IMG/VR virus record: IMGVR_UViG_3300030116_001024
Coordinates: 1,892 to 24,817 of that record
Source: a virus
DNA: 22,926 nt
Reading direction: 5' to 3' (one strand)
Part shown: positions 1,074-16,215 of the stretch, in pieces
How the letters are laid out: each line of letters begins with the position of its first letter
How positions within the stretch are numbered: position 1 is the stretch's first letter
The notes under the pieces: model-generated
Databases searched by the model: none
Told to the model about the DNA's origin: nothing
What the model saw: only the letters and a program-made list of their open reading frames with translations
Translations under genes and position numbers: made by a program

Positions 1074-1226
1074 ATGGCTAAGAAAGGATTGTATTACAAC
1101 ATAAATAAAAGAAAGAAAGCTGGCACTAGTAGAAGCAAAGCAAATAGTACTATCTCAGATAAGGATTATAAAAACATGAAAGCTGGTTTTCCTAAAAAGA
1201 AAAAGAATCCATTAGAGATTGATTAA
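1074..1226 (+). CDS. Small basic protein, MAKKGLY-type
   Basis: This 50-residue, strongly basic protein begins MAKKGLYYNINKRKKAGT, with a Lys-rich end (KKKKNPLEID). An upstream in-frame ATG-like start at 1041 exists, but ATG at 1074 gives the conserved-looking N-terminus. Proteins of this MAKKGLYxNIxxKRKR type are, as I recall, widespread in marine cyanophages and related phages; their function is unknown to me, and DNA- or capsid-associated roles are only guesses from the charge. It is the only plus-strand gene inside the leftward block. Its stop TAA overlaps the stop of the convergent exonuclease gene within the four-base palindrome TTAA (1223-1226). Confidence 0.8.
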   Translation: MAKKGLYYNINKRKKAGTSRSKANSTISDKDYKNMKAGFPKKKKNPLEID

Positions 1227-1954
1227 GGTTTCCAAAGTTTTACCTTACCAGTATTTTTATTGTAGTCACCACTTCTTAGTATCCTTGCCAGTCTTGCTGT
1301 AAGCAATGCTTCTTTGTATCCGCCAGATTTCTTTTCGTATTCTTTAACTACTATCTCCCACATCTCATCAAGTTGTTTTGCATCTCCTAATATTTTGTTA
1401 GCTGTTACTGTACCTACACCAGATATACCTTTGTAGTTATCAGTTGTATCTCCTGTCAATGCTTGAGCCATCCAGTTTCTATCTGCCTGTCTTCTTGTTA
1501 TAAGTTCTAAGTCTTCACCAGCTAATAGTTTGCAAGGTATAGTTCTCATATCTTTATCTGGACTAACAATAATAGGATCATCAAGCGTCTTGTCTGTAGC
1601 TAATAATCCAAGTACATCATCACCTTCTAACCCTTCATACCTTACACACTTATACCTGTCAGACAATGCACTCATAACTGCTTTAAGTGCTAATGGTTTT
1701 CTACGACTCTTTCGGTTAGCTTTGTACTCTTGATATAACTCATGTCTAAATGTTGGATAAGAAGTAAAGCACATAATTACTTCGCCTTCATCTTCTGATA
1801 CTTGCTTGTATCCTTTGATGTATGTCTCGATAAGGTCTAACGCCCAGCTAGGTCTTGAGTACAATACATGCAAGTTGTCATCAAACCTGTCGTCATTCTC
1901 TACAGCGTAGCAACAATGGTAACAAAGCCAGTCGGCATCAATTAATAAAGTCAT
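1223..1954 (-). CDS. 5'-3' exonuclease, T7 gp6-like (FEN/PIN fold)
   Basis: The product is 243 residues. It carries the acidic metal-binding set of FEN-type nucleases: DAD (Asp6, Asp8), the YKANR stretch near 77-81, EGDDVLG (Glu110, Asp112, Asp113), SPDKDM (Asp133, Asp135), and GDTTDNYKGISGVGTVTA (Asp169, Asp172 and the helix-hairpin-helix). In T7 the gp6 exonuclease removes RNA primers, helps degrade host DNA and supplies recombination ends. ATG at 1954 is chosen because it overlaps the upstream primase-helicase stop (TAATG), the usual coupling in this block; an upstream non-ATG start at 2029 would extend 75 nt into that gene without homologous sequence. In T7 the DNA polymerase gene separates gp4 and gp6; here it does not. 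Confidence 0.93.
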   Translation of the reverse strand: MTLLIDADWLCYHCCYAVENDDRFDDNLHVLYSRPSWALDLIETYIKGYKQVSEDEGEVIMCFTSYPTFRHELYQEYKANRKSRRKPLALKAVMSALSDRYKCVRYEGLEGDDVLGLLATDKTLDDPIIVSPDKDMRTIPCKLLAGEDLELITRRQADRNWMAQALTGDTTDNYKGISGVGTVTANKILGDAKQLDEMWEIVVKEYEKKSGGYKEALLTARLARILRSGDYNKNTGKVKLWKP

Positions 1955-3594
1955 TAGAAGTTTGTTAGTGAAGGGGTAAGGCGACCAGTAGATTCGTTGT
2001 ATAACAACTTGTCTGCTTTGCCCAAGCATCCATTATGTCTATTCTTTAATACCTTTAACTGCAATTCATTGCTACTCTCTTCCGACTGCTGCGATCTAAT
2101 GCCACATATTACTAGGTCACTTAACTGAGCTATGCTTTGACTACCTCTTAATGCTGCTAAGTTTATATCTCCTCCCTCTTCAGCTGGCTTGCCATCTGTT
2201 CTACGCAAGTGGCTGACCATAACTAAACCTACTCCTGTCTTTTCAACCACTTGTCTTAACTTGGTACAACATACATCTATTTGTTTTCTTTCATCTCCAT
2301 CTGTTAGTCCAGATACTACAAGACTTAGATGATCCAAGAAGATAACATCACATTCTTCACCAGTAGCCATGTATGTTATCTGATCTATTAATCTATCTGG
2401 ATCTAACGAACCAAAGTGCTGAAGTAATACAAATCTATTGTCACTAAATAAATAGTCGAATGCTTGTCGTAACTCTTTCTCATCAACAGCCTTCTCATCT
2501 ATATGTAGTGGTTTGTTTAATGCTATAGATAGTATGCCTTGCATACTTCTCTTACTGCTTTCTTCGAGGCCAATCCATCCGACCTTAAGATTATGATTTA
2601 AAAAATGATAGCCCATCTCACGACAGAGTAAGCTCTTGCCCACGCCTGTGCCAGCACAAATTGTAGTGAGCGACTGCTTTCTATATCCTTGTACCATCTT
2701 GTTTAATTCTGGAAAAGGATAGCTACATATCTGTGAGTTATCTTCCTTAACTAAATCTTCCCATAGATCGTAGGCAGAGAATATGTTGTCGGGTCTGATA
2801 GGACTTGCTTTGAAGAGGAGATCTCTAAGTAACTCTTGCTCCCCTGCGATGAGCATTTCATTAGCATCCTTTCTTGGTAGGTTAGCGATAGCTGCCTTAC
2901 CAGTAGGTAAGATCTTTGCAACCTTTTGGGCAGCATCCAAGCCAGCTGAGTCGTTGTCAAAACAAATAACAATTCGAACAAACTGAGATAACCATTTTAA
3001 ATTTGCAGCTACATACTTGGTAGCAGACTGAGCGCCTGATGGCAAACTTACGACTGGAAAATAGTTACCAGTACTAGAACGAGTGGCTTGGGCTACACTC
3101 ATACAATCAATCTCGCCTTCTGTAATTGTTACGAAAGAACTACCAGTATTAAATTGTCTCCATAATTCCTGACCCCATAGCTTTATATCTGATAAGTCTC
3201 CCTTCCATATAAATCTTTTATCTTTAAATCTAATATGTTGTGCTGCTATTAATCCACGTTGATCTCGATAGGTTGCAACTTGACAATCACTACCACTAAA
3301 TTGTGATACGCCATAGTTAAAAAACTTACATGTCTCTTCTGTTATTCCACGCTTGGGTAGCTCACAAGGAATTGCGGTTAGCGGACTCCATTCTTTTTTC
3401 ATTGGTACGAAAGTGGGTTTGTCTAAAATTTTTTTGGGTTGAAATTGCCAACCACATCCAAAGCAATGTTTATGTCCGTCATCGTAAACAGCTACGTTAT
3501 CTTTGCTGTTACATTCTGGGCAAGGTTCTTTGCTTATGTATTTACTCGGCATACCATTCTTTAGGGATAGTTTTGTTACACCAAAGAAAGCCAT
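1954..3594 (-). CDS. DNA primase-helicase, T7 gp4-like
   Basis: This 546-residue protein has the full T7 gp4 layout. An N-terminal zinc ribbon has Cys25, Cys28, Cys44 and Cys47. A TOPRIM primase fold has TITEGEID (Glu159) and CFDNDSAG (Asp213, Asp215). The RecA-type hexameric helicase has Walker A GTGVGKS (315-321) and Walker B DVIFLDH (Asp421). The length is close to T7 gp4 (566). It unwinds DNA and lays down primers at the fork. The C-terminus ends SLTNF: the terminal Phe is as in T7 gp4, where it docks on DNA polymerase, but the acidic run before it is missing. ATG 3594 overlaps the endonuclease gene by 53 nt; ATG 3552 is an alternative that still keeps the zinc ribbon. Neither start has a clear ribosome site. 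Confidence 0.96.
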   Translation of the reverse strand: MAFFGVTKLSLKNGMPSKYISKEPCPECNSKDNVAVYDDGHKHCFGCGWQFQPKKILDKPTFVPMKKEWSPLTAIPCELPKRGITEETCKFFNYGVSQFSGSDCQVATYRDQRGLIAAQHIRFKDKRFIWKGDLSDIKLWGQELWRQFNTGSSFVTITEGEIDCMSVAQATRSSTGNYFPVVSLPSGAQSATKYVAANLKWLSQFVRIVICFDNDSAGLDAAQKVAKILPTGKAAIANLPRKDANEMLIAGEQELLRDLLFKASPIRPDNIFSAYDLWEDLVKEDNSQICSYPFPELNKMVQGYRKQSLTTICAGTGVGKSLLCREMGYHFLNHNLKVGWIGLEESSKRSMQGILSIALNKPLHIDEKAVDEKELRQAFDYLFSDNRFVLLQHFGSLDPDRLIDQITYMATGEECDVIFLDHLSLVVSGLTDGDERKQIDVCCTKLRQVVEKTGVGLVMVSHLRRTDGKPAEEGGDINLAALRGSQSIAQLSDLVICGIRSQQSEESSNELQLKVLKNRHNGCLGKADKLLYNESTGRLTPSLTNF

Positions 3595-3991
3595 GACGTT
3601 CAGCCCATTGCCAATACGTCAGGCTTCTTTTAGCTTTACTAAGTTTGTTGTTTGCGTTTTGAAAACAGAACCGCAAGCTTAGTGTGGGATGTTGCGTCTT
3701 GACTGCAATATATTTTTTTCTTTCTTCTTTAAGTAGCGTTCCTTTGAGTTCAACCACACAGTTAGGAAGGATGATGTCAGGAGTGTAGCTACTGCTGATG
3801 ATGTAATCATAGCTGACAGTTTCATAGCTGAATTGTACTTTCTTTTTGATTAAGTCAGAGGCAACTTGAGCCTCGAACTTTGATCTAAAATGTACTACCC
3901 CCGAAGGAGTTTTCAACATTTGAGGGTGTGAGGTCTTGCGTTTCACTCTTGCTTTGGAACTTGAACCCTGAGAGGTCTGTCGTTTTTTCAT
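3542..3991 (-). CDS. Endonuclease I / Holliday junction resolvase, T7 gp3-like
   Basis: The product is 149 residues from ATG 3991. It aligns along its length with T7 endonuclease I: FRSKFEAQVASDL (the T7 Glu20 region), YTPDIILPN (Asp55), VVELKG (Glu65 and Lys67), a KTQHPTLSLRF stretch, and IPKEW near the end. The T7 enzyme is a dimer that cleaves branched DNA, resolving replication and recombination intermediates before packaging. The start is uncertain. ATG 3991 gives a basic 30-residue N-terminal extension and overlaps the SSB gene by 107 nt; ATG 3919 gives a length nearer to the T7 core and a 35-nt overlap. No ribosome site decides between them. The 3' end overlaps the primase-helicase start. 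Confidence 0.92.
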   Translation of the reverse strand: MKKRQTSQGSSSKARVKRKTSHPQMLKTPSGVVHFRSKFEAQVASDLIKKKVQFSYETVSYDYIISSSYTPDIILPNCVVELKGTLLKEERKKYIAVKTQHPTLSLRFCFQNANNKLSKAKRSLTYWQWAERHGFLWCNKTIPKEWYAE

Positions 3992-4520
3992 ATGGAACAA
4001 AATTCATAATGACTATGGCTTCTGGTTGAACTGTTAATCCAACACCATAAGTCGGATGGTTGTACCCTTGAACTCTTAGCTTGGCTTGTACTGTTGTACC
4101 TCTACCTAAACCTATGTACTTTTCTTTTTCTTCTGGTGGTATAGGAGTGCCATACTTATCTAAAAGAATAGGTGGTGTATTCTTAAATCTATTAGCACCT
4201 TGCCCTGCTTCTACAGGTTTTTTACATTTGATCTCCATTACATTTTTGCCCTCGAACTCAGTAAATCCATACCTTGAATGTTCGCCCATTTTAAAAGTTT
4301 GTTGTGGGAAAGCAGTCTTAAGCTGTACCTTCCATGCTTCAAGACCTTTCTCGAACTCGTCAAATACTCTTGTTGTTTCTTTTGAGTCTGGATCTAACAA
4401 TAAAGTTACGCTCCATTCTGGTGCTTTATTAAATGCATCATCTGGTTTTACTAGATGACTCCATGCAACTCCACATTCTGGTGTGAAGATATAAAAAGGA
4501 TTTGCTTTAACTTGATTCAT
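3885..4520 (-). CDS. Single-stranded DNA-binding protein, T7 gp2.5-like
   Basis: This 211-residue protein begins MNQVKANPFYIFTPECGVAW and has the gp2.5-type OB-fold pattern, including a KCKKP stretch, a GRGTTVQAKLRVQGY strand and the PEAIVIMNFVPY strand near the end. T7 gp2.5 (232 residues) coats single strands and recruits polymerase and helicase. ATG 4520 overlaps the RNA polymerase stop as ATGA, so translation is probably coupled. The C-terminal 20 residues carry only three acidic residues, unlike the strongly acidic T7 tail, but the protein still ends in Phe (GGSTF), the residue used by T7 gp2.5 to contact its partners. The region coding for this tail also codes for the N-terminus of endonuclease I in another frame. 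Confidence 0.92.
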   Translation of the reverse strand: MNQVKANPFYIFTPECGVAWSHLVKPDDAFNKAPEWSVTLLLDPDSKETTRVFDEFEKGLEAWKVQLKTAFPQQTFKMGEHSRYGFTEFEGKNVMEIKCKKPVEAGQGANRFKNTPPILLDKYGTPIPPEEKEKYIGLGRGTTVQAKLRVQGYNHPTYGVGLTVQPEAIVIMNFVPYEKTTDLSGFKFQSKSETQDLTPSNVENSFGGSTF

Positions 4521-6889
4521 GTTATGAAGTAGGTTGATGAACGTGTAAGTAAAACATCCAAGTCTCCAAGAGTAGGCTCTGGAGGTAGGCTGTCTATTTG
4601 GTTGTCTGTTAATTGTGCTTTTAATTCTGCCTTTAGTTTTGATAGACAATCGACTGAATACATATCAGCAAATGTCTGTCTAACAGAGTCACGCAGTTCA
4701 CTCATCTCAGACGGAGTAGTAACGAAACAATCGTGGATGCCACAGATATTTTCGACTCCTTTTATTGAAGCATGAATTGTAGAAAATGCCATATGAGATG
4801 AATCAAAACTATGTAATATATTTGCTGAGATAGCATGCCCCATCTTCTTTGTATTAAGTTCTGGCGTATCCTCGTTTGTTCTTATATCTAAATAAACATC
4901 CGACAAATACTTTAATTGGATTCGTATTTTCTTTGGGTCGTAATACTTTTGCTCGACATATAAACCAGTCGGACTTGTCCATGATACTGGCTTGTTGTCT
5001 TTACCTAATTCTCTGCCTACTGCTCTAAACCATTTCATTGCAATAACTGCTGGCTTGATAGACTTGGCTGCCTCCTGATACAGCAAGCTAGCCATGTAAC
5101 TTACTGTTGTCATAGCCCCCTTACCTCTTGTCCAATTATTTTTACCTAAAGTTGTACCCCTCTCGATAGCCCAGCTGTAAGCATGATGATAAAAGGCACT
5201 ATTAGTAGCCGAGTATGGTGCTGTCATCACGCAAGGTTTAGTCAACGATCTATCCACGTTTAACATTAACCACTTCTTGGCTCTAGGGTCGTCACTCTCA
5301 ATAAGTCTTTTGTTTATCTCAGTTGCTACCTCGCTGTATATATCTTGTGGTCTATCAGAGTTTATAAGGTTTACCTTTTCACCCATCACTTGGTCACGAA
5401 GCAAACCTGAGAAGTGCTGAATAGAACTGCAAGTGCAATCAAGGTGGCAGGGAAGCTGACATAGATAGCTACTTGGTTCTTGTTGATAAAGATAGATTGC
5501 CCTGCAAAAAGCAAGAAAACTCCAAGCCTTATCTGCTCGCATCCATAGTTCTGGTGTTGCCCAACAATCTCTTCCAATAGAATTAATCTCTTTTAAATTA
5601 TTATTAACCCATTCTATTTTTGTTTGGAAGTCTTGTTTGATACCAAACATATTTGCACCATGTATCTTTAACCAATTCAAATCCTCTTCTGTTTTAATTA
5701 ACTTGCCATTAGTAAATTGCAATAGCGATCTTGATACATCATTACCCTGCACATTTAAGAATGGAACTCTATCGTATACTCTGCCTCGAAAATCTAATTG
5801 CTTTGGAAAGTATAGGTTAGGTTCGTCTTTGTATTTTTGTGCCATCCATATAGTTTTAGCTATACCTATACGACTACCTTTTGTATAGTTATTCTTATCT
5901 ATAATTCTCTTGCAATCTATTCTCCACTTAATAACTTGTGGGTCATTCTCTTCCAGATGCTTTGGATATGGTGGTACTGCATACCCATCTCTTGGTAGTA
6001 AACAACCTATTTCTAAATTGTTGTCGTATGCATATAGTATCTGATCTAAAATATATTTATTAACCTGTAAACTTACGTTGCCTTGTATGTTTGCAACCTT
6101 TAAGAACGCTGTATCTGTCTGTATTCTTGAAGCTATTTCTTTATTGTTACTTTTAAATAAATTAAATTTTATATTCTCATTGTAGTATCCGCCATCGTAT
6201 GGATTAGTCCATCGTTTTGGTTTTATCAGTAAGGGTAAAAAGTTAGGTGTCTGTATTTTAAGGTCAGTATCTATTTTCTTTACCCATTCCATGCATTTAT
6301 CGGTAGCTCTTACCATTCTTCGTGGTGTCTTATAACTTTTATCTAAAAAAATTTGTATTAGTCCTGTATATTTTTGTATTAACTCAACCATAAATAGACC
6401 ACTTGCCATCCGTTGTCTTGCATTCCATTGCTCGGTGTTAGTCATTGTATTTATTAAATAGATTCGATACCTTTTCTTATGTCTACCCCTTTTGTATTTT
6501 CGTAGCTCACTATCAGTAGCCCTATCGAGCATTGTCTCAATCCATATCCTTTCGATAACATTAGCTGCCACTTGATGGAGGCTTGGTGTACTTGATAGCG
6601 TATCTACTACTGTCCTTATAGATGCAGCTGCCACTTGTTGGGGTGGCAAGTCAAGTAGAGGCGTAAGCATAGCGTAGTTAGTACCAGCTTTCCCTTGCTC
6701 TATCTTTCTTCTAATAGCTCGCAAGTGACTAACAATTATGTCCACATTAAAAGAGCATAGAGCCTCACCATAAATGGTAAGAGACTCCATGCTCGCTAGT
6801 TGTTTTCGATTGTGTTGTGATCTTATTCTATTCTGACCCATGTTTAACATCAGGTCTTCATTAGCTAGTTGATCTTCAAGGGTTCGCAT
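4517..6889 (-). CDS. T7-type single-subunit DNA-dependent RNA polymerase
   Basis: This 790-residue protein (T7 883) transcribes phage genes from phage promoters. Recognisable stretches include LDFRGRVYDRVPFLNVQGND, WLKIHGAN, SSIQHFSGLLRD and ILHSFDSSHM. The catalytic residues are present: Asp484 (T7 Asp537), Lys551 (Lys631), Tyr559 (Tyr639) and Asp720 (Asp812). Neighbouring positions that are normally near-invariant differ: the T7 DGSCSG run is DCTCSS, T7 KRSVM is KPCVM, T7 YG is YS, HDSF is HDCF, and the C-terminal FAFA foot is YFIT. In the specificity loop, T7 RLN is RIQ and T7 FRLQ is VYLD, predicting a promoter unlike T7's. The start has a good GGAG ribosome site 4 nt upstream. It overlaps the RHH gene upstream by 14 nt and SSB downstream by 4 nt. 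Confidence 0.96.
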   Translation of the reverse strand: MRTLEDQLANEDLMLNMGQNRIRSQHNRKQLASMESLTIYGEALCSFNVDIIVSHLRAIRRKIEQGKAGTNYAMLTPLLDLPPQQVAAASIRTVVDTLSSTPSLHQVAANVIERIWIETMLDRATDSELRKYKRGRHKKRYRIYLINTMTNTEQWNARQRMASGLFMVELIQKYTGLIQIFLDKSYKTPRRMVRATDKCMEWVKKIDTDLKIQTPNFLPLLIKPKRWTNPYDGGYYNENIKFNLFKSNNKEIASRIQTDTAFLKVANIQGNVSLQVNKYILDQILYAYDNNLEIGCLLPRDGYAVPPYPKHLEENDPQVIKWRIDCKRIIDKNNYTKGSRIGIAKTIWMAQKYKDEPNLYFPKQLDFRGRVYDRVPFLNVQGNDVSRSLLQFTNGKLIKTEEDLNWLKIHGANMFGIKQDFQTKIEWVNNNLKEINSIGRDCWATPELWMRADKAWSFLAFCRAIYLYQQEPSSYLCQLPCHLDCTCSSIQHFSGLLRDQVMGEKVNLINSDRPQDIYSEVATEINKRLIESDDPRAKKWLMLNVDRSLTKPCVMTAPYSATNSAFYHHAYSWAIERGTTLGKNNWTRGKGAMTTVSYMASLLYQEAAKSIKPAVIAMKWFRAVGRELGKDNKPVSWTSPTGLYVEQKYYDPKKIRIQLKYLSDVYLDIRTNEDTPELNTKKMGHAISANILHSFDSSHMAFSTIHASIKGVENICGIHDCFVTTPSEMSELRDSVRQTFADMYSVDCLSKLKAELKAQLTDNQIDSLPPEPTLGDLDVLLTRSSTYFIT

Positions 6890-7052: not shown

Positions 7053-7374
7053 CGAAGAACCTCCTTGCTGTATCCCATACTAATTTAACTGTCGAATACA
7101 TAGCTACCCTATGCTCGACATTAGTAAAAGCTTGTTTAAGTAAATCGTTCATAGCTCTATCGCTAGCCTCATCCTCTGTCTCTATCTTCTCTGGATTATC
7201 AGGAAGCATAGTCCAATAGATAGCATTCGATGGGTGGTAGTTGTATGAATAACTAATCCATTGTCCGTTAGGTGTGAACTCATCACCCTTAGTAAAGTAG
7301 AGAACTAGCCCAGCGTTATTAGCGTGGGCTTTGTTTGGTTTTTTAATTGCTATTTTGTACAGCTGATGATCCAT
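7039..7374 (-). CDS. Hypothetical protein
   Basis: I do not recognise this 111-residue protein. It starts MDHQLYKIAIKKPNKAH, has an aromatic-rich central stretch (NGQWISYSYNYHPSNAIYWTM), an acidic turn (EKIETEDEASDRAM) and a basic amphipathic end (ARRFFDGRK). No signal peptide or membrane helix is visible. The ATG at 7374 is preceded, after exactly 5 nt, by a 15-nt element identical to one before the gene at 10365. No Shine-Dalgarno is seen. The 3' end overlaps the RHH gene by 14 nt. Confidence 0.75.
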   Translation of the reverse strand: MDHQLYKIAIKKPNKAHANNAGLVLYFTKGDEFTPNGQWISYSYNYHPSNAIYWTMLPDNPEKIETEDEASDRAMNDLLKQAFTNVEHRVAMYSTVKLVWDTARRFFDGRK

Positions 7375-7474
7375 TTTGTTTAAGTAGTAGGTTGTATTCT
7401 GGATTGAATCCTATAAGGATTGTTAATGGAGACATAATAAAAAGCAAGAATATAAATTGATATCTTAACTTCAC
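7343..7474 (-). CDS. Putative 43-residue single-span membrane protein (GTG start)
   Basis: A GTG at 7474 overlaps the upstream gene's stop as GTGA and opens a frame of 43 codons. The product (VKLRYQFIFLLFIMSPLTIL then IGFNPEYNLLLKQ) has one strongly hydrophobic segment at residues 6-22 with a basic N-terminus, as in small phage inner-membrane peptides. Without it, a 96-nt gap would separate two genes in an otherwise overlapping block. Against it: the start is GTG without a ribosome site, and 32 nt overlap the next gene. The repeated 15-nt element at 7380-7394 lies inside it. Confidence 0.45.
   Translation of the reverse strand: MKLRYQFIFLLFIMSPLTILIGFNPEYNLLLKQNGSSAVQNSN
7380..7394 (-). repeat. 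15-nt element, copy 2 (5 nt before ATG 7374)
   Basis: Minus-strand CAACCTACTACTTAA, identical to the copy at 10371-10385. Both stand exactly 5 nt before an ATG on the same strand. It may be a promoter or translation signal; the function is not known. Confidence 0.6.
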
Positions 7475-10365: not shown

Positions 10366-10370
10366 AACAA

Positions 10371-10385
10371 TTAAGTAGTAGGTTG
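10371..10385 (-). repeat. 15-nt element, copy 1 (5 nt before ATG 10365)
   Basis: Minus-strand CAACCTACTACTTAA, identical to 7380-7394 and at the same distance from an ATG. A shortened relative precedes the SSB gene (4525-4536). A looser relative lies upstream of the capsid. Confidence 0.65.
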
Positions 10386-10437
10386 ATTTAAAAGATTGCA
10401 GCAAGATCCGTAAAGAATCTCAGACAATCCTTTTTAG

Positions 10438-10466
10438 ATATTAGCTGACCTTAAGCCAGTTTGCAA
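10438..10466 (-). promoter_or_regulatory. Candidate host-type promoter for the leftward block
   Basis: On the minus strand TTGCAA is followed after 17 nt by TAATAT, about 75 nt before ATG 10365. Each hexamer matches four of six consensus bases, so this is a weak call supported mainly by spacing and position. Confidence 0.3.
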
Positions 10467-10555
10467 TTAATTAGGCGGTTGATCTCTAAATCATTTATAT
10501 ATTGGCTGCTGATTTGCTCCAGATGGCCGACAAAAACCAGTAATTTCAATGCAGA

Positions 10556-10605
10556 ACTGTCTCAAGGACAGTACTACAAGACCTCCAGAGGCTAGTTATA
10601 AGCCT
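10556..10605. other. Cluster of three small hairpins, possible structured RNA
   Basis: ACTGTC-TCAAG-GACAGT (10556-10572), CCTC-CA-GAGG (10582-10591) and AGGCT-AGTTATA-AGCCT (10589-10605) lie in succession; the last two compete for shared bases. A fourth weak stem is GAGG/CCTC at 10646-10658. The strand of the functional RNA is not determined. On the minus strand this would be the leader of the early transcript. Confidence 0.4.
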
Positions 10606-10756
10606 ATTCTTATTAAATAAATACAATTATTAACCCATTTTGGACGAGGGCTGGCCTCTCTATGTAACATTTTATACAAACTCAATGGGGGAATATATAG
10701 AATCCGTATAGACGTAGAGCCGATCAGATTTTTCTACCAAAATATATCCCAATAGA

Positions 10757-10776
10757 TAACTAATAGTAACTAATAG
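10757..10776. repeat. Tandem 10-bp direct repeat (TAACTAATAG x2)
   Basis: Two perfect adjacent copies of TAACTAATAG, preceded by a further AATAG at 10751 so that AATAG recurs at 10-11 bp spacing. One-helical-turn spacing is typical of iterons or operator half-sites bound on one DNA face. Confidence 0.6.
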
Positions 10777-10849
10777 ATAGCAGGGGAGTGCTTCTTCTAT
10801 TGTGGAGAGCTAGTGGTGGACAGGTTTTTCAAGTAAGATATATTAAGAG

Positions 10850-10919
10850 TAAGCCATTATTATTTACCGAACCCCCAAAGCAGTCGGTCAAATTACCTTA
10901 CACACACTATAATGGCTTA
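10850..10919. repeat. 11-bp inverted repeat flanking the divergent promoter zone
   Basis: TAAGCCATTAT (10850-10860) and ATAATGGCTTA (10909-10919) are perfect reverse complements separated by 48 bp. The right arm overlaps the TATAAT element and the expected start of the terS transcript. The left arm gives an almost identical AATAATGG element pointing the other way. It fits an operator pair or mirrored promoters. Confidence 0.7.
10885..10913 (+). promoter_or_regulatory. Promoter for terS-terL, perfect TATAAT
   Basis: TATAAT at 10908-10913 is a perfect -10 hexamer; at 17-bp spacing the -35 position reads CGGTCA (three of six). The same stretch contains CACTATA (10905-10911), the core of T7-family promoters, preceded by AATTACCTTACAC, which recurs in part upstream of the capsid. 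Whether host or phage polymerase uses it cannot be decided from sequence. It lies about 55 nt before ATG 10967. Confidence 0.6.
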
Positions 10920-10921
10920 TA

Positions 10922-10955
10922 AATGAGGCTTTTCAGTAGTGGGTTGAGCCTCATT
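10922..10955 (+). promoter_or_regulatory. Stem-loop at the 5' end of the terS leader
   Basis: AATGAGGCT (10922-10930) pairs perfectly with AGCCTCATT (10947-10955) around a 16-nt loop. A transcript from the TATAAT element would begin almost at the base of the stem. Such 5' stem-loops protect T7-type mRNAs from decay; control of terS translation is another possibility. Confidence 0.55.
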
Positions 10956-10966
10956 CAATAAATAAA

Positions 10967-11203
10967 ATGGCACGAAAAAACACAAACGAAGTATTAAGCG
11001 ACTTGCATGCAAATTTAGCAAGTGCGTTAGGTGAAATATTAAATAGTGGAGAGGCTACGACAGCAGATATGAACGTAATTCGTCAATTTTTAAAAGACAA
11101 TCAGATAACAGCCCAGCCTGTAGAGGATACACCTTTTGGTGACTTGGCTAAGTCGTTACCTGATATAGAGAATGTTATTGAATTAAAGAAGCGTAGTGCG
11201 TAA
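10967..11203 (+). CDS. terS: Small terminase subunit (DNA maturase A), T7 gp18-like
   Basis: This 78-residue protein begins MARKNTNEVLSDLHANLASA and contains the characteristic helix ATTADMNVIRQFLKDNQI, as in DNA maturase A proteins of T7-like phages (T7 gp18 is 89 residues). It recognises or regulates concatemer processing together with the large subunit. The ATG is preceded by AATAAATAAA and no Shine-Dalgarno. Its stop and the terL start overlap as TAATG at 11201-11205. It is the first gene of the rightward block. Confidence 0.9.
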   Translation: MARKNTNEVLSDLHANLASALGEILNSGEATTADMNVIRQFLKDNQITAQPVEDTPFGDLAKSLPDIENVIELKKRSA

Positions 11204-12933
11204 TGAAGAAGGAAGATTGGCAACAATTACCCGAACCATACAATAAAGACTTTAGATATTTCTTAGTTTTAGTCTGGAGGCATTTACAACTACCAGATCC
11301 TACCGCAGTACAGTTAGATATAGCTGAATATATGCAACAGGGCAGTAAGAGAAGAATAATTGAAGCGTTTAGAGGAGTAGGTAAGTCATGGATGGCAGCA
11401 GCTTATGTACTTTGGTTATTAAGAAACGATCCACAGAAGAAAATTATGGTTGTGTCGGCATCAAAAACAAGGGCTGATGACTTTGCACAGTTTTGTTTAC
11501 GAATAATACAAGAAATGCCAATACTTAAATGTTTAGAACCTGATCGAGAGCAGCAAAGATCAGCTAGTAATAGGTTTGATGTACGTCCAGCTATACCCGA
11601 TCAGTCAGCTAGTGTTAAAAGTGTAGGTATCTTTGGTCAATTAACTGGTAGTCGTGCTGATTTAATACTGGCAGATGACTGCGAAGTACCGAATACAGCA
11701 TGGACTGTAGGCATGAGAGAGAAGTTATTGCAATGTTGCGGTGAATTTAACGCTATTCTTAAGCCTGATGGAGATATTTTGTTTTTAGGTACACCACAAA
11801 CAGAGGAAAGTATATACAACAAGCTACGAAATAGAGGATATGACTGTCGCATCTGGACTAGTAGATACCCTAAGAAACCAGAAAAGTATGGAGATGCCCT
11901 AGCTCCGATGATTCGTAGCCTAGCAACAGTAAAAGCAGGGCAACCAACCGATCCAGATAGGTTTTCTGAAATGGATTTACTGGAAAGAGAAGCTAGTTAT
12001 GGGCGTTCACAGTTTACTTTGCAGTTCCAATTGGACACTAGCCTCTCTGATTTACAGCGATTCCCACTAAGATTAGCCGATTTAGTCGTTATGGAGGTCA
12101 AAGATCATGCTCCTGAGAAGGTTGTTTGGTCATCTGGAGCAGAATATAGGATAGTTGACCTACCAGCTGTAGGTTTTAGTGCAGATTATTACCATAGACC
12201 AGCGTTTTTGCATGGTGATTGGCTGCCTTTTACTGGTGTAGTGGCTTATATTGACCCATCAGGTAAGGGTGTCGATGAAACTGCATACAGTATTGTCGGA
12301 CATTTGAACGGAAACCTGTATGTTTTAGAGGTCGGGTCGTTTTGTGAAGGCTATACTGAGCCAGTTTTGACTGGCATTGCTGAAGCTTGTAAAAGAAACA
12401 AGGTTAATTTAATACTTTTAGAGGATCAGTTTGGTCAAGGTATGATGGAAAGCTTGTTAAAACCATATTTACAGAAGATTTACCCTTGTACTATTGAAGG
12501 TCAAAGAAGCAATGTGCAGAAAGAACGAAGAATAATAAACGCATTAGAGCCTGTTATGAACCAACATAGATTAATAATTAATAGATCAGTCGTAGAAAAC
12601 GATGCAAAGCCTCGAACAGAGGACTCGGTAGATAAAGCATTAGGGTATCAGTTGTTTCACCAGATGACTCATATAACAGTTGATAGAAATTGTTTACAAA
12701 ACGATGACAGACTTGACTCTTTAGCTGGAGCGGTGGAATATTGGAATGAATCACTTGCAATAGATGAAGATAGGGCTATCAAAGATAGGGAAATGGAATT
12801 ATGGGATTTGGAATTGGCTGCTCACAGGGGGGATATTGAAGGGGCTTTGGATGCCCAAGTCTTGGGTATACCGCTTGAAAAACTCGGACATAGACAAGCA
12901 CAGGGGAAATGGAGTCGTGTCACAGGACACTAA
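11203..12933 (+). CDS. terL: Large terminase subunit (DNA maturase B), T7 gp19-like
   Basis: This 576-residue protein is close to T7 gp19 (586). The N-terminal packaging ATPase has Walker A GVGKS (58-62, in EAFRGVGKSWMAAA) and Walker B LILADD (154-159). The C-terminal RNase H-fold nuclease has acidic positions YIDPSG (Asp351), LLEDQFG (Glu407, Asp408) and DDRLDSLAGAVEYW (Asp502, Asp505). It docks on the portal, cuts concatemers and pumps DNA into the procapsid. In T7 the pair lies at the right genome end after tail and lysis genes; here it heads the late block. The last 17 nt overlap the next gene. Confidence 0.97.
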   Translation: MKKEDWQQLPEPYNKDFRYFLVLVWRHLQLPDPTAVQLDIAEYMQQGSKRRIIEAFRGVGKSWMAAAYVLWLLRNDPQKKIMVVSASKTRADDFAQFCLRIIQEMPILKCLEPDREQQRSASNRFDVRPAIPDQSASVKSVGIFGQLTGSRADLILADDCEVPNTAWTVGMREKLLQCCGEFNAILKPDGDILFLGTPQTEESIYNKLRNRGYDCRIWTSRYPKKPEKYGDALAPMIRSLATVKAGQPTDPDRFSEMDLLEREASYGRSQFTLQFQLDTSLSDLQRFPLRLADLVVMEVKDHAPEKVVWSSGAEYRIVDLPAVGFSADYYHRPAFLHGDWLPFTGVVAYIDPSGKGVDETAYSIVGHLNGNLYVLEVGSFCEGYTEPVLTGIAEACKRNKVNLILLEDQFGQGMMESLLKPYLQKIYPCTIEGQRSNVQKERRIINALEPVMNQHRLIINRSVVENDAKPRTEDSVDKALGYQLFHQMTHITVDRNCLQNDDRLDSLAGAVEYWNESLAIDEDRAIKDREMELWDLELAAHRGDIEGALDAQVLGIPLEKLGHRQAQGKWSRVTGH

Positions 12934-13544: not shown

Positions 13545-13573
13545 AGTATAGATTGATTTCTATGGAAGAACAA
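13545..13573 (-). promoter_or_regulatory. Candidate minus-strand promoter for the two-gene unit
   Basis: On the minus strand TTGTTC is followed after exactly 17 nt by TATACT, with the ATG of the 53-residue gene about 28 nt beyond. The -10 hexamer matches five of six and the -35 three of six consensus bases. It overlaps the start of the divergent membrane-protein gene. Confidence 0.4.
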
Positions 13574-13825
13574 GAAAAAGAAGGTATTGATTGGGCTGAA
13601 CTGTTCGGTCATGGGGTCAGATTTATGATTTTGGTCTGGTCTTTATCAATGATGACTTTGGGATACATGGATAAGATCAGGAATGACGGAGCTTTTTTGG
13701 CAGGCCTGACAAGTGGGGTTTTAGGCAGTTATGGAATTTCTGTCAATAAGAAAAAGGGTGGCAATAGCAACAACAAAGACAGTAAGATAGTAGATAATAA
13801 AGACAATACAGTAGGTATCACATGA
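13562..13825 (+). CDS. Two-span membrane protein, holin-like
   Basis: The product is 87 residues from ATG 13562; a TTG three codons earlier is less likely. An acidic N-terminus (MEEQEKEGIDW) is followed by transmembrane helix 1 (about 21-36, FMILVWSLSMMTLGYM), a short charged loop DKIRNDG, helix 2 (about 43-61), and a highly charged Lys/Asn/Asp tail. This two-helix hairpin with a charged C-terminus is the class II holin plan, and a lysis role would suit the late region. No endolysin is seen nearby, so the call rests on topology alone. Its stop overlaps the next start as ATGA. Confidence 0.7.
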   Translation: MEEQEKEGIDWAELFGHGVRFMILVWSLSMMTLGYMDKIRNDGAFLAGLTSGVLGSYGISVNKKKGGNSNNKDSKIVDNKDNTVGIT

Positions 13826-14187
13826 AAAAATTTTTAGCACTAGCTTTATTTTTGGCTGCACCTTGCTACGCAAATGGAATCCCCACTTGGACTACTGGTT
13901 CTAGCAACCGCACAGAGAATACTACTCAGACTATAAATCGCACCATAGTTACTCAGAAATATGGGTCTGCTCTAGAAACTTGGGAAGCCTCAAACATTGC
14001 TGTTACAAGTGCTAGTAACGGAGGAATAACAGCTTCAGATGCAATTTTCACTCCTAATACTGCTACTGCTGATTGGTCATTAAATGTGACTACTAGAGCA
14101 TCAGGAACTAAATTAGAAGAAATTACACAAACAGATGCGATTACGACTACTAGCGTTATCACTTCTTTGTCTGTCTTTAGTCAGTAA
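13822..14187 (+). CDS. Secreted Thr/Ser-rich protein of unknown function
   Basis: This 121-residue protein has a typical signal peptide (MKKFLALALFLAAPCYA, cleavage before NG). The mature part is rich in Thr, Ser, Asn and Ala, probably beta-structured, and ends TTSVITSLSVFSQ. I recall secreted cyanophage proteins with the same kind of Thr-rich end (a TTT-V-SV--SVFSQ pattern), adjacent to a Cys-containing partner, as here. It is coupled to the holin-like gene (ATGA) and overlaps the next gene by 53 nt in another frame. A tail, periplasmic or lysis role cannot be chosen. Confidence 0.75.
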   Translation: MKKFLALALFLAAPCYANGIPTWTTGSSNRTENTTQTINRTIVTQKYGSALETWEASNIAVTSASNGGITASDAIFTPNTATADWSLNVTTRASGTKLEEITQTDAITTTSVITSLSVFSQ

Positions 14188-14659
14188 AGCAAAAGCCGAA
14201 GGCGATACAAACGTACAGGCTCAACCAAATGCGATTGGTAATTCTAGTATTATCAATCAGAATATGAATATAAATAATGGAATGACAGGCAAACAACAGT
14301 TTGGAAATTTAGTTTGTAGTCAACCTACTATGGCAATAACTCCTTTTTATACAGGGAATGACGCACAAGGAGAAGATACATATTCCATAAACGAAGGTTG
14401 GGGAGTGCAAATGAGTTTTATGATACCTCTAGGAGATAATCAAACTTGTAACGAATTATCCAAAGTAAAGCTAGACCTAGCCAAAGAAGAGTTAGACAAG
14501 CAAGTGCATGATAAACAGCTTGTTCGTATTTTGAAATGTAGTCAGCTTCACGCATCAGGCTACATGATAAACCCTGCTTCTAAGTACGCATACATCTGTA
14601 GTGATGTCATCAATATACGAACTTATGTTAAAACTAATTCTGATCTTTTTTCTGATTAG
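14135..14659 (+). CDS. Secreted Cys-containing protein of unknown function
   Basis: This 174-residue protein has a signal peptide (MRLRLLALSLLCLSLVSKAKA, cleavage before EG). The mature protein has an Asn/Gln-rich start (IINQNMNINNGMTGKQQFGN), a segment LVCSQPTMAITPF, a strand GVQMSFMIPLGDN, and a helix LSKVKLDLAKEELDKQVHDK. Four cysteines in the mature part suggest disulfides and hence a periplasmic site. The order of segments resembles a cyanophage family I recall only loosely. The start lies 53 nt inside the previous gene; the 3' end overlaps the convergent minus-strand gene by 26 nt. Confidence 0.75.
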   Translation: MRLRLLALSLLCLSLVSKAKAEGDTNVQAQPNAIGNSSIINQNMNINNGMTGKQQFGNLVCSQPTMAITPFYTGNDAQGEDTYSINEGWGVQMSFMIPLGDNQTCNELSKVKLDLAKEELDKQVHDKQLVRILKCSQLHASGYMINPASKYAYICSDVINIRTYVKTNSDLFSD

Positions 14660-15116
14660 TAATTTCTTTTTTAAGCACCTTTTTAAATATTTTTGTCATT
14701 ATTTTTTTCAACTGATTAATAACACTTTGCAAAACTATTGAACCTGTGACTGCTGCTGTGGCACTTACACCAGATGCTATTACACTTGAAGCAATCACCT
14801 CTGGGGCAGGGATAGGCATTTCACCAAAAAATGGTATATTGAACGTAGCTACAGGTTCTTCGGTTGATAAAGTTTCTTTGGGGTCTGGCAGGTTTGTCGG
14901 TATTGTCTCTTTTGTTAATTGCAACTCTTCCTCCTTTGAAGATGATGTTTCTTCTTCAGCAGAAGATTCCGAAGCTCCCAGACCCGACTCTACCTGTTCC
15001 AAAGATGGAAGGAGTACAGGATCTAGGTACGGAATCTCTGCCACAGGTACGTCAAAAATTGTTTGAGGTGGATTAAGTACATTTATATTTGGTATATAAG
15101 GTAGATCTTCGTTCAT
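14634..15116 (-). CDS. Pro/Glu-rich protein with one membrane-spanning segment
   Basis: This 160-residue protein begins MNEDLPYIPNINVLNPPQTI, with a proline-rich repetitive region (to about residue 40), an acidic Ser/Glu-rich spacer (about 41-88), a hydrophobic Ala/Ser/Val helix (about 107-133), and a basic amphipathic tail (KKIMTKIFKKVLKKEI). The layout suggests membrane anchoring with a long extended domain on one side and a positive tail on the cytoplasmic side. I recall similar Pro-rich/TM/basic proteins in cyanophages. It lies directly upstream of, and divergent from, the capsid gene. Function unknown. Confidence 0.72.
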   Translation of the reverse strand: MNEDLPYIPNINVLNPPQTIFDVPVAEIPYLDPVLLPSLEQVESGLGASESSAEEETSSSKEEELQLTKETIPTNLPDPKETLSTEEPVATFNIPFFGEMPIPAPEVIASSVIASGVSATAAVTGSIVLQSVINQLKKIMTKIFKKVLKKEITNQKKDQN

Positions 15117-15228
15117 TTTTTGATAGTATTGTTATAACCTTACACTTATTCTTTTCAGATAGCATCCTTGCGAGGTATTAGTCTAACTAAGATGAGGGGC
15201 GGTTAAGTAAAACTTATTTCATCCTTAG
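15117..15228 (+). promoter_or_regulatory. Capsid upstream region with promoter-like element
   Basis: This 112-nt region separates the divergent 14634-15116 gene from the capsid. At 15133-15149 it holds TATAACCTTACACTTAT, which shares ACCTTAC and 12 of 17 positions with the terS promoter region (10891-10907) and resembles the element at 1037-1053. A strong late promoter is expected here. No good host-type -35/-10 pair was found. Confidence 0.4.
15187..15228 (+). promoter_or_regulatory. Nested stem-loop ending at the capsid start codon
   Basis: CTAAGATGA (15187-15195) pairs with TCATCCTTAG (15219-15228) with one bulged C. Inside, TAAGT (15204-15208) pairs with ACTTA (15212-15216) around a 3-nt loop. 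The outer stem ends one base before the capsid ATG, and no Shine-Dalgarno is visible. Possible roles are RNA processing, mRNA stability or translation control. Confidence 0.5.
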
Positions 15229-16215
15229 ATGGCTAATTTCACTCCGTCTAGGCTCGGCTTAGTTAACAATACTGGTACAGCCTATGACGCTCTTTTTCTA
15301 AAAGTTTGGAGCGGAGAAGTGCTTTCTGCATTTAGAAAGGCTACAATCTTCGAACCATTACATACAGTTCGTACTATTCAATCTGGAAAATCAGCACAGT
15401 TTCCAATCATTGGATTAGCTACAACTTCTTACCATACAGTAGGAACTCAATTAACAGGTTCAGCAATCAAGCATGCTGAAGCTACCATAAATATTGATGA
15501 CAAACTTGTCAGTCAAGTATTTTTGGCAGACATCGAGGAAGCTAAGAACCATTATGATGTCAGAAGTCGCTATACAACTGAGATGGGCAATGCTTTAGCA
15601 TATCGCTTTGACCAGAACGTAGCTGCAACAATAGCTCAAGCTGCAAGAACAGCTACAAACTTCAACACCGATTTAGCTGGTGGTACAAGAGTTAAAATTC
15701 TTAAAGGTAGTACTGCTAATACAGCTGCTGCTGTTGCTGCTGTTACAGGTGCTGATCTAGTTACTGCTCTTTGGACTGTTGCTCAAACATTTGATGAGAA
15801 CAATGTTCCAGAAGACAATAGATATTTTGCTCTTGATCCAGCAAATTACTATAAATTAGCTCAGACAACTGATGTTCTTAACAGAGACTGGGGCGGTTCT
15901 GGAGCATATGCAGAAGGAACAGTTCTTAAGGTTGCTGGTATTAATATCATTAAGTCTAATCATTTACCTAAGACAAACAGATCTGCGGTAACTGGTGAGA
16001 ATAACACATACCACGCTAACTATACAGACAATATCGGTCTTGCATTTACTCCAGATGCAGTCGGTACTGTTAAGTTAATGGATCTTAAGATGCAGCAAAC
16101 AGGTAATGACGTTTCTGCATTATGGCAAGGTACATTTATGGTTGGTTCAATGGCTCATGGTACTGGCGTTTTACGTCCTGACTGTGCTATTGAGGTATAT
16201 GCAGCTAACTCATAA
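15229..16215 (+). CDS. Major capsid protein, T7 gp10-like
   Basis: This 328-residue protein (T7 gp10A 345) aligns clearly: TIQSGKSAQFPIIGLATTSY, KHAEATINIDDKLVSQVFLA, and DIEEAKNHYDVRSRYTTEMG, which matches the T7 DIEDAMNHYDVRSEYTSQLG stretch. It has the HK97-type capsid fold and forms the icosahedral shell. No scaffold gene precedes it, unlike T7, and the portal is on the other strand. A nested hairpin precedes the ATG and a terminator-like hairpin follows the stop, suggesting a strongly expressed unit. No frameshift-derived minor capsid extension is evident, since the frame closes and is followed at once by the hairpin. Confidence 0.96.
   Translation: MANFTPSRLGLVNNTGTAYDALFLKVWSGEVLSAFRKATIFEPLHTVRTIQSGKSAQFPIIGLATTSYHTVGTQLTGSAIKHAEATINIDDKLVSQVFLADIEEAKNHYDVRSRYTTEMGNALAYRFDQNVAATIAQAARTATNFNTDLAGGTRVKILKGSTANTAAAVAAVTGADLVTALWTVAQTFDENNVPEDNRYFALDPANYYKLAQTTDVLNRDWGGSGAYAEGTVLKVAGINIIKSNHLPKTNRSAVTGENNTYHANYTDNIGLAFTPDAVGTVKLMDLKMQQTGNDVSALWQGTFMVGSMAHGTGVLRPDCAIEVYAANS

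Follow-up and report, generated by a model that had tools for sequence, protein, structure and literature searches.

The locus analysed here raises the question of whether a T7-type RNA polymerase (RNAP), in which the catalytic residues are in place while several residues beside them are replaced, has a changed chemistry or only carries the ordinary residues of a poorly known clade. The window, i.e., the whole stretch of DNA that was analysed, is 22,926 nucleotides long and comes from an IMG/VR virus record of 24,817 bases, which is a fragment. On its minus strand, the ORF at 4517-6889 encodes a T7-type RNAP of 790 amino acids plus the stop codon, with matches to Pfam RNA_pol (PF00940; 4.7e-80, 270 bits against a cut-off of 22) over the palm and fingers and to the PHROG 'RNA polymerase' (5.7e-177). 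The gene and its signature residues are as follows.

4517..6889, minus strand: single-subunit T7-type RNA polymerase, 790 aa (ORF, Pfam, PHROG, AlphaFold2 model)
5423..5440, minus strand: motif A DCTCSS, residues 484-489 (T7 D537-G542); catalytic Asp kept; G538C, G542S
5225..5239, minus strand: KPCVM, residues 551-555 (T7 K631-M635); catalytic Lys kept; R632P, S633C
5210..5215, minus strand: O-helix Tyr-Ser, residues 559-560 (T7 Y639-G640); ribose-sensing Tyr kept; G640S
4724..4735, minus strand: HDCF, residues 719-722 (T7 H811-F814); second catalytic Asp kept; S813C
4520..4531, minus strand: C-terminal foot YFIT, residues 787-790 (T7 FAFA)

In T7 numbering, the changes are thus G538C, S539T, G542S, R632P, S633C, G640S, S813C and FAFA to YFIT, with D537, K631, D812, Y639 (the ribose sensor), R627, H784 and H811 of T7 being retained. 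The five altered motifs were confirmed as described in the initial annotation. The four residues that it had reported to be in place, Asp484, Lys551, Tyr559 and Asp720, are present at the numbers given and, like Arg547 and His693, occupy columns that are invariant in both alignments (9 and 47 sequences) as well as in the survey table. In the clade to which the enzyme belongs, the equivalents of D421, R425, Y427, K472, D537, Y571, R627, K631, Y639, H784, H811 and D812 are invariant or nearly so. The AlphaFold2 model of the window RNAP (pLDDT 90.2, pTM 0.84) has its best PDB matches in the elongation complexes of T7 RNAP (TM 0.85), followed by the mitochondrial RNAPs, and the fold is predicted to be that of T7 RNAP in the elongation state.

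How common each substitution is was surveyed in a sample that was assembled via similarity scans and is not unbiased, comprising the window's own subclade (13 further IMG/VR sequences with 85-100% identity, each carrying the whole signature), its sister group (72-74% identity, with YFVT as the foot and Ala at the G640 position), some 50 P-SCSP1-type RNAP sequences from IMG/VR that are more distant, and other groups. At the G538 position, Cys is present in 72 of the 74 P-SCSP1-type RNAPs, Ala in 75/75 of the MPP-A/B ones, and Gly in the P-SCSP2-type RNAPs, the pelagiphages and the T7 relatives. The G640 position is occupied by Ser or Ala in the P-SCSP1-type, by Asn in the P-SCSP2-type and nearly all MPP-B RNAPs, and by Gly elsewhere; S633 is variable in every group surveyed; S813 is replaced by Cys in the P-SCSP1-type, P-SCSP2-type and Syn5-like RNAPs. 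The exact FAFA foot occurs in this sample only in T7 and its close relative, the marine RNAPs having FFFA, YFFC, YFFS, YIFT or YFIT. The R632 position is Pro in 69/74 P-SCSP1-type RNAPs (the remainder having Asn or, once, Gly), Lys in the P-SCSP2-type and SP6 RNAPs and Arg elsewhere; R632P and F882I/V are both limited to the P-SCSP1-type. Finally, Ser at the G542 position is found only in the window subclade and its sister (19/19), with Gly in 204/204 others, and is without characterised precedent in the sampled set. The possibility, named in the initial annotation, that these substitutions are common in marine podovirus RNAPs thus holds for the G538, G640, S633 and S813 positions and for the foot, and does not hold for R632P, F882I/V and G542S. 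Its premise that the Tyr-Gly of the O helix and the Gly beside the first catalytic Asp are conserved is only partly right, both of these next-residue positions being variable in marine T7-like RNAPs. As judged from these comparisons of sequence, the odd residues are real and common to the whole subclade, and most of them are ordinary among marine cyanophage RNAPs.

In the tree, the P-SCSP1-type RNAPs (24 sampled sequences) group in a single clade with full support and a long stem, which bears out the earlier proposal of a divergent subfamily. The P-SCSP2-type RNAPs form a separate, equally long branch, and the grouping of the two types as one clade has an AU p of 0.25, meaning that their sister relation is neither rejected nor shown. 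It is noted that the RNAPs of P-SCSP1h (L001:1742-4144) and P-SCSP2 (L002:2142-4538) are only 24% identical and their single-stranded DNA-binding proteins (SSB) 29%, against 48-52% for the primase, exonuclease, portal, capsid and terminase, and that K441R (T7 numbering) is common to the two RNAPs. The best characterised relatives of the window RNAP are those of P-SCSP1a-u (MPP-C, Prochlorococcus; Cai et al. 2022, PMC9860041), with 53% identity over the full length. Like the window RNAP, the P-SCSP1 RNAP has DCTCS, KPCVM, Tyr-Ser, HDCF and YFIT, and its genome has no DNA polymerase gene; by contrast, P-SCSP1h keeps G542 (DCTCSG) and has the RNAP and capsid genes on the same strand, whereas the window subclade has Ser542 and an inverted late block. 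The other core genes of the window are also closest to P-SCSP1/P-SCSP2 (MPP-C), the identity to P-SCSP1h being 80% for terL, 79% for the capsid and 72% for the primase. The P-SCSP2 RNAP (MPP-C), from a phage likewise without DNA polymerase, shares with the window HDC, a non-Gly residue (Asn) after the O-helix Tyr and, as in the P-SCSP1-type, K441R; however, it is about 25% identical, keeps DG, has R632K and has no matching promoter motif. The P-SSP7 RNAP (MPP-B) shares the non-Gly residues after the catalytic Asp (DA) and after the O-helix Tyr (Tyr-Asn), Cys633 and a non-FAFA foot (YFFC), but keeps R632 and S813, is about 24% identical and belongs to a phage with DNA polymerase. The Syn5 RNAP (MPP-A; PMC3950665, PMC4538805) shares the non-Gly residue after the first catalytic Asp (DA), HDC and a non-FAFA foot (YFFS), but keeps R632 and G640, is about 23% identical, comes with a DNA polymerase and uses the promoter ATTGGGCACCCGTAA. 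T7 RNAP itself shares the fold, the catalytic and ribose-sensing residues and the promoter architecture (a core around CACTA), with 26-28% identity, and differs in having DGSCSG, KRSVM, YG, HDSF and FAFA.

The genes around the RNAP gene that are needed for the argument are the following.

3885..4511, minus strand: gp2.5-like single-stranded DNA-binding protein, the next gene downstream of the RNAP gene (PHROG 112, 8e-13)
3542..4000, minus strand: endonuclease I (T7 gp3-like)
1954..3594, minus strand: primase-helicase (T7 gp4-like)
1223..2029, minus strand: 5'-3' exonuclease (T7 gp6-like), directly after the primase-helicase
11203..12933, plus strand: terminase large subunit
15229..16215, plus strand: major capsid protein, the first gene of the inverted late block

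In comparison with P-SCSP1h, the segment that begins with the capsid gene and runs through the last of the tail genes is flipped against the early and replication genes (window 14637-15229). This inversion is present in all eight contigs, from the subclade or its sister, for which the two genes could be located, and additionally in three others (in all, the window, G001, G002, G003, G004, G005, G007, G009, G021, G023 and G025), while 13 P-SCSP1-type and 9 P-SCSP2-type contigs have the collinear order, and it appears that the late block was inverted more than once among the DNA-polymerase-less cyanopodoviruses. The T7-like collinear order of the MPP-C isolates, which is perhaps not required of the clade, is not found in the window subclade. 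Because of the inverted late block, we regard the window phage as a close relative of MPP-C, not as a certain member. The phage is uncultured and, by analogy with its relatives, probably infects Prochlorococcus.

By comparing the RNAP-sense strand with itself, pairwise and in a strand-specific manner, for repeated intergenic words, we found the candidate promoter motif CAACCYACTACTKAA, which has three intergenic copies on the RNAP strand, with none expected by chance.

10930..10951, minus strand: probable cognate promoter AGGCTCAACCCACTACTGAAAA, in the divergent intergenic region (motif comparison)
10369..10390, minus strand: probable cognate promoter TAAATCAACCTACTACTTAATT (motif comparison)
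7378..7399, minus strand: probable cognate promoter GAATACAACCTACTACTTAAAC, immediately 5' of the ORF starting at 7374 (motif comparison)

The word CAACCYACTAC has three exact copies on the minus strand of the window, at 10946, 10385 and 7394, and none in 100 shuffles. With up to two mismatches, CAACCYACTACTKAA has 4 matches in the window versus 0.32 expected, the fourth and weaker one (4541-4520) overlapping the YFIT codons and being left out of the promoter count. The motif lies upstream of early genes and recurs between genes at corresponding positions of other subclade genomes and of P-SCSP1h, which has the same promoter core at 488 and 37083. With a matrix built on 12 sites, further P-SCSP1-type loci had 13 matches in the sense orientation and 0 in antisense, 12 of the 13 being outside the window subclade, and 161 control loci (P-SCSP2-type, MPP-A/B and pelagiphage) had none. 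Applied to the T7 genome, the matrix had 16 of 17 annotated T7 promoters within the 23 best of 79,832 positions; of 300 matrices with permuted columns, none brought more than one T7 promoter into the top 50. Since the motif matrix recovers the T7 promoters and the permuted ones do not, the motif is most probably a promoter of the T7 type whose bases at -11, -8/-7 and -2 are its own. In the opposite direction the comparison is weak, the T7-promoter matrix ranking the window sites 26th, 146th and 343rd of 45,810 positions, as would follow from a change of the GGGAGA start and of G-11; the T7 promoter and the window motif have different bases at -11, -8/-7, -2 and the start. In analogy to T7, transcription from AGGCTCAACCCACTACTGAAAA would begin at the G of GAAAA. 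This distinct, T7-type candidate motif supports the earlier suggestion of a promoter specificity of the enzyme's own. The motif is found on the early strand only, with no good match on the late strand, and neither the L045 nor the L105-110 branch has it; if the promoter reading is right, the promoters of these branches must have drifted. An unbiased search for repeated words recovered the T7 promoters and none in the cyanophages because the copies there are few. Note also that a 9-bp inverted repeat, AATGAGGCT...AGCCTCATT (window 10922-10959), encloses the promoter at 10930-10951 in its loop; as read by eye, its pairing seems to be kept with wobble changes in related genomes.

Based on these results, we consider with a probability of roughly 0.85 that the window encodes a functional single-subunit promoter-dependent RNAP of a T7-like cyanopodovirus near MPP-C (P-SCSP1), which would transcribe the phage genome from few T7-type promoters with the core CAACCYACTAC. 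The substitutions beside the catalytic residues would then reflect lineage drift or a fine-tuning of the packing around contacts that are mediated by the backbone. In T7 RNAP, it is the main-chain carbonyl of the residue after D537 that takes part in metal binding; because the contact is made by the main chain, a side chain at this position would be tolerable, by analogy with the Ala in Syn5. Copying of the genome would fall not to the RNAP but to a host DNA polymerase that is recruited together with the primase-helicase and SSB of the phage.

Alternatively, the foot, S813C and G640S could, as in Syn5, tune the initiation, the 3'-end behaviour or the processivity to a mode in which few promoters give very long transcripts, which we regard as unlikely. 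In favour of such tuning, the foot influences both initiation and elongation in T7 RNAP (PMC10110463), and the Syn5 RNAP, with YFFS and HDC, has a T7-like specific activity, a processivity of more than 30,000 nt, which is higher than that of T7, and very few promoters (PMC3950665), the present genomes likewise showing few copies of the motif. However, the foot variants are widespread and different between clades, and with the late block in the opposite orientation, transcripts that continue from the early promoters would run antisense to the late genes. To our knowledge there is no biochemistry for any P-SCSP1-type RNAP, and we found no assay of these enzymes. As the Syn5 RNAP, carrying DA, HDC and YFFS all together, is active and processive, these three changes alone do not break elongation. 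The suggestion of a changed initiation or processivity is thus unsupported, several of the changes being found either in the processive Syn5 RNAP or in P-SSP7, a phage with a DNA polymerase of its own.

A second alternative starts from the way in which these phages replicate. The MPP-C cyanopodoviruses are abundant in the surface ocean and have no DNA polymerase gene (PMC9860041, in the main text of which the phrase 'RNA polymerase' is absent). We found no DNA polymerase in the 24.8-kb record, a fragment, or in eight close contigs, no such gene between the primase-helicase and the exonuclease of the window, and none in two related near-circular contigs of about 39.1 kb. Family-A DNA polymerase (PF00476) has no match in any of the 40 contigs or genomes with a P-SCSP1- or P-SCSP2-type RNAP, namely 9 window-subclade records, P-SCSP1h, P-SCSP2 and 29 further contigs, many of which are fragments, versus matches in 15/15 comparison records (11 MPP-A/B contigs, P-RSP2, Syn5, P-SSP7 and HTVC120P); family-B polymerase and Pol III alpha have no match in 8 genomes. 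The published absence thereby comes to cover a broader range of uncultured phages. It is noted that the association of this loss with the RNAP type is one over very few evolutionary events and does not imply compensation by the RNAP. A tie between the loss of Tyr-Gly and the loss of the DNA polymerase was also considered and rejected, as MPP-B phages with DNA polymerase have Tyr-Asn.

From this absence it could be argued that the substitutions shift the sugar selection to the point where dNTPs are used appreciably and part of the DNA synthesis falls to the RNAP. R632P places a proline inside the O helix at the residue that in T7 touches the ribose, the same position being Asn or once Gly in other P-SCSP1-type RNAPs and Lys in the P-SCSP2-type, and the wild-type Syn5 RNAP already discriminates only weakly against 2'-fluoro-dNTPs (PMC4538805). 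In T7, however, R632 contacts the ring oxygen, which is common to rNTP and dNTP, whereas Tyr639 contacts the 2'-OH, both before insertion, and R632A is tolerated with natural ATP (PMC9836923). The equivalents of Tyr639 and His784 are retained in all or nearly all surveyed sequences, and because they are kept there is no ground for a relaxed ribose selection. Moreover, G640N, G538A and S813C are present in phages with their own DNA polymerase, SP6 RNAP likewise has Lys at 632, dedicated T7-type candidate promoters are present, and the two groups of RNAP from phages without DNA polymerase are unlike each other at G538, R632 and G640. An appreciable use of dNTPs is thus very improbable, and a direct role of the active site in copying the genome, e.g., by supplying a captured host polymerase with long or mixed primers, can hardly be expected either. 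The changed sugar selection envisaged in the initial annotation is left without support, and we see no evidence for a changed chemistry of the window RNAP.

The last explanation, a cluster of sequencing or assembly errors or a decaying pseudogene, for which it could be said that several normally conserved residues are changed together, has next to no chance and is ruled out because the residues are the same in 14/14 subclade sequences including the window, from different metagenome assemblies, the full-length gene is fully open, and the dN/dS to the closest relatives is 0.09-0.15 (about 0.1). The gene is under strong purifying selection.

The finding is therefore genuine and, for the greater part, ordinary: a poorly known clade has a T7-type RNAP variant with a candidate promoter. 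The clade provides a natural test set for which 'invariant' residues of T7 RNAP are dispensable, which is relevant to enzymes for in vitro transcription, and the proposed promoter makes transcription mapping and in vitro assays directly possible. The MPP-C phages, moreover, are among the most abundant cyanophages of the surface ocean and copy their DNA with no DNA polymerase gene (PMC9860041).

Some minor observations concern the rest of the window, in which no tRNA and no Rfam match were found. In the divergent intergenic region (10405-10966), a sigma-70-like site on the late strand (10817-10844, plus strand) is conserved in 7/7 aligned genomes and possibly serves as a host-polymerase promoter for the late block, although sigma-70-like sites are no commoner than in shuffles. 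About 110 non-coding bases directly upstream of the capsid gene (window 15117-15228) are strongly conserved in 7 genomes. Finally, the small cassette g35-g32 (window 13553-15116), encoding membrane or secreted proteins, is 71-98% identical between P-SCSP1h and P-SCSP2, the core genes being about 50% identical, which suggests recent exchange or strong constraint.
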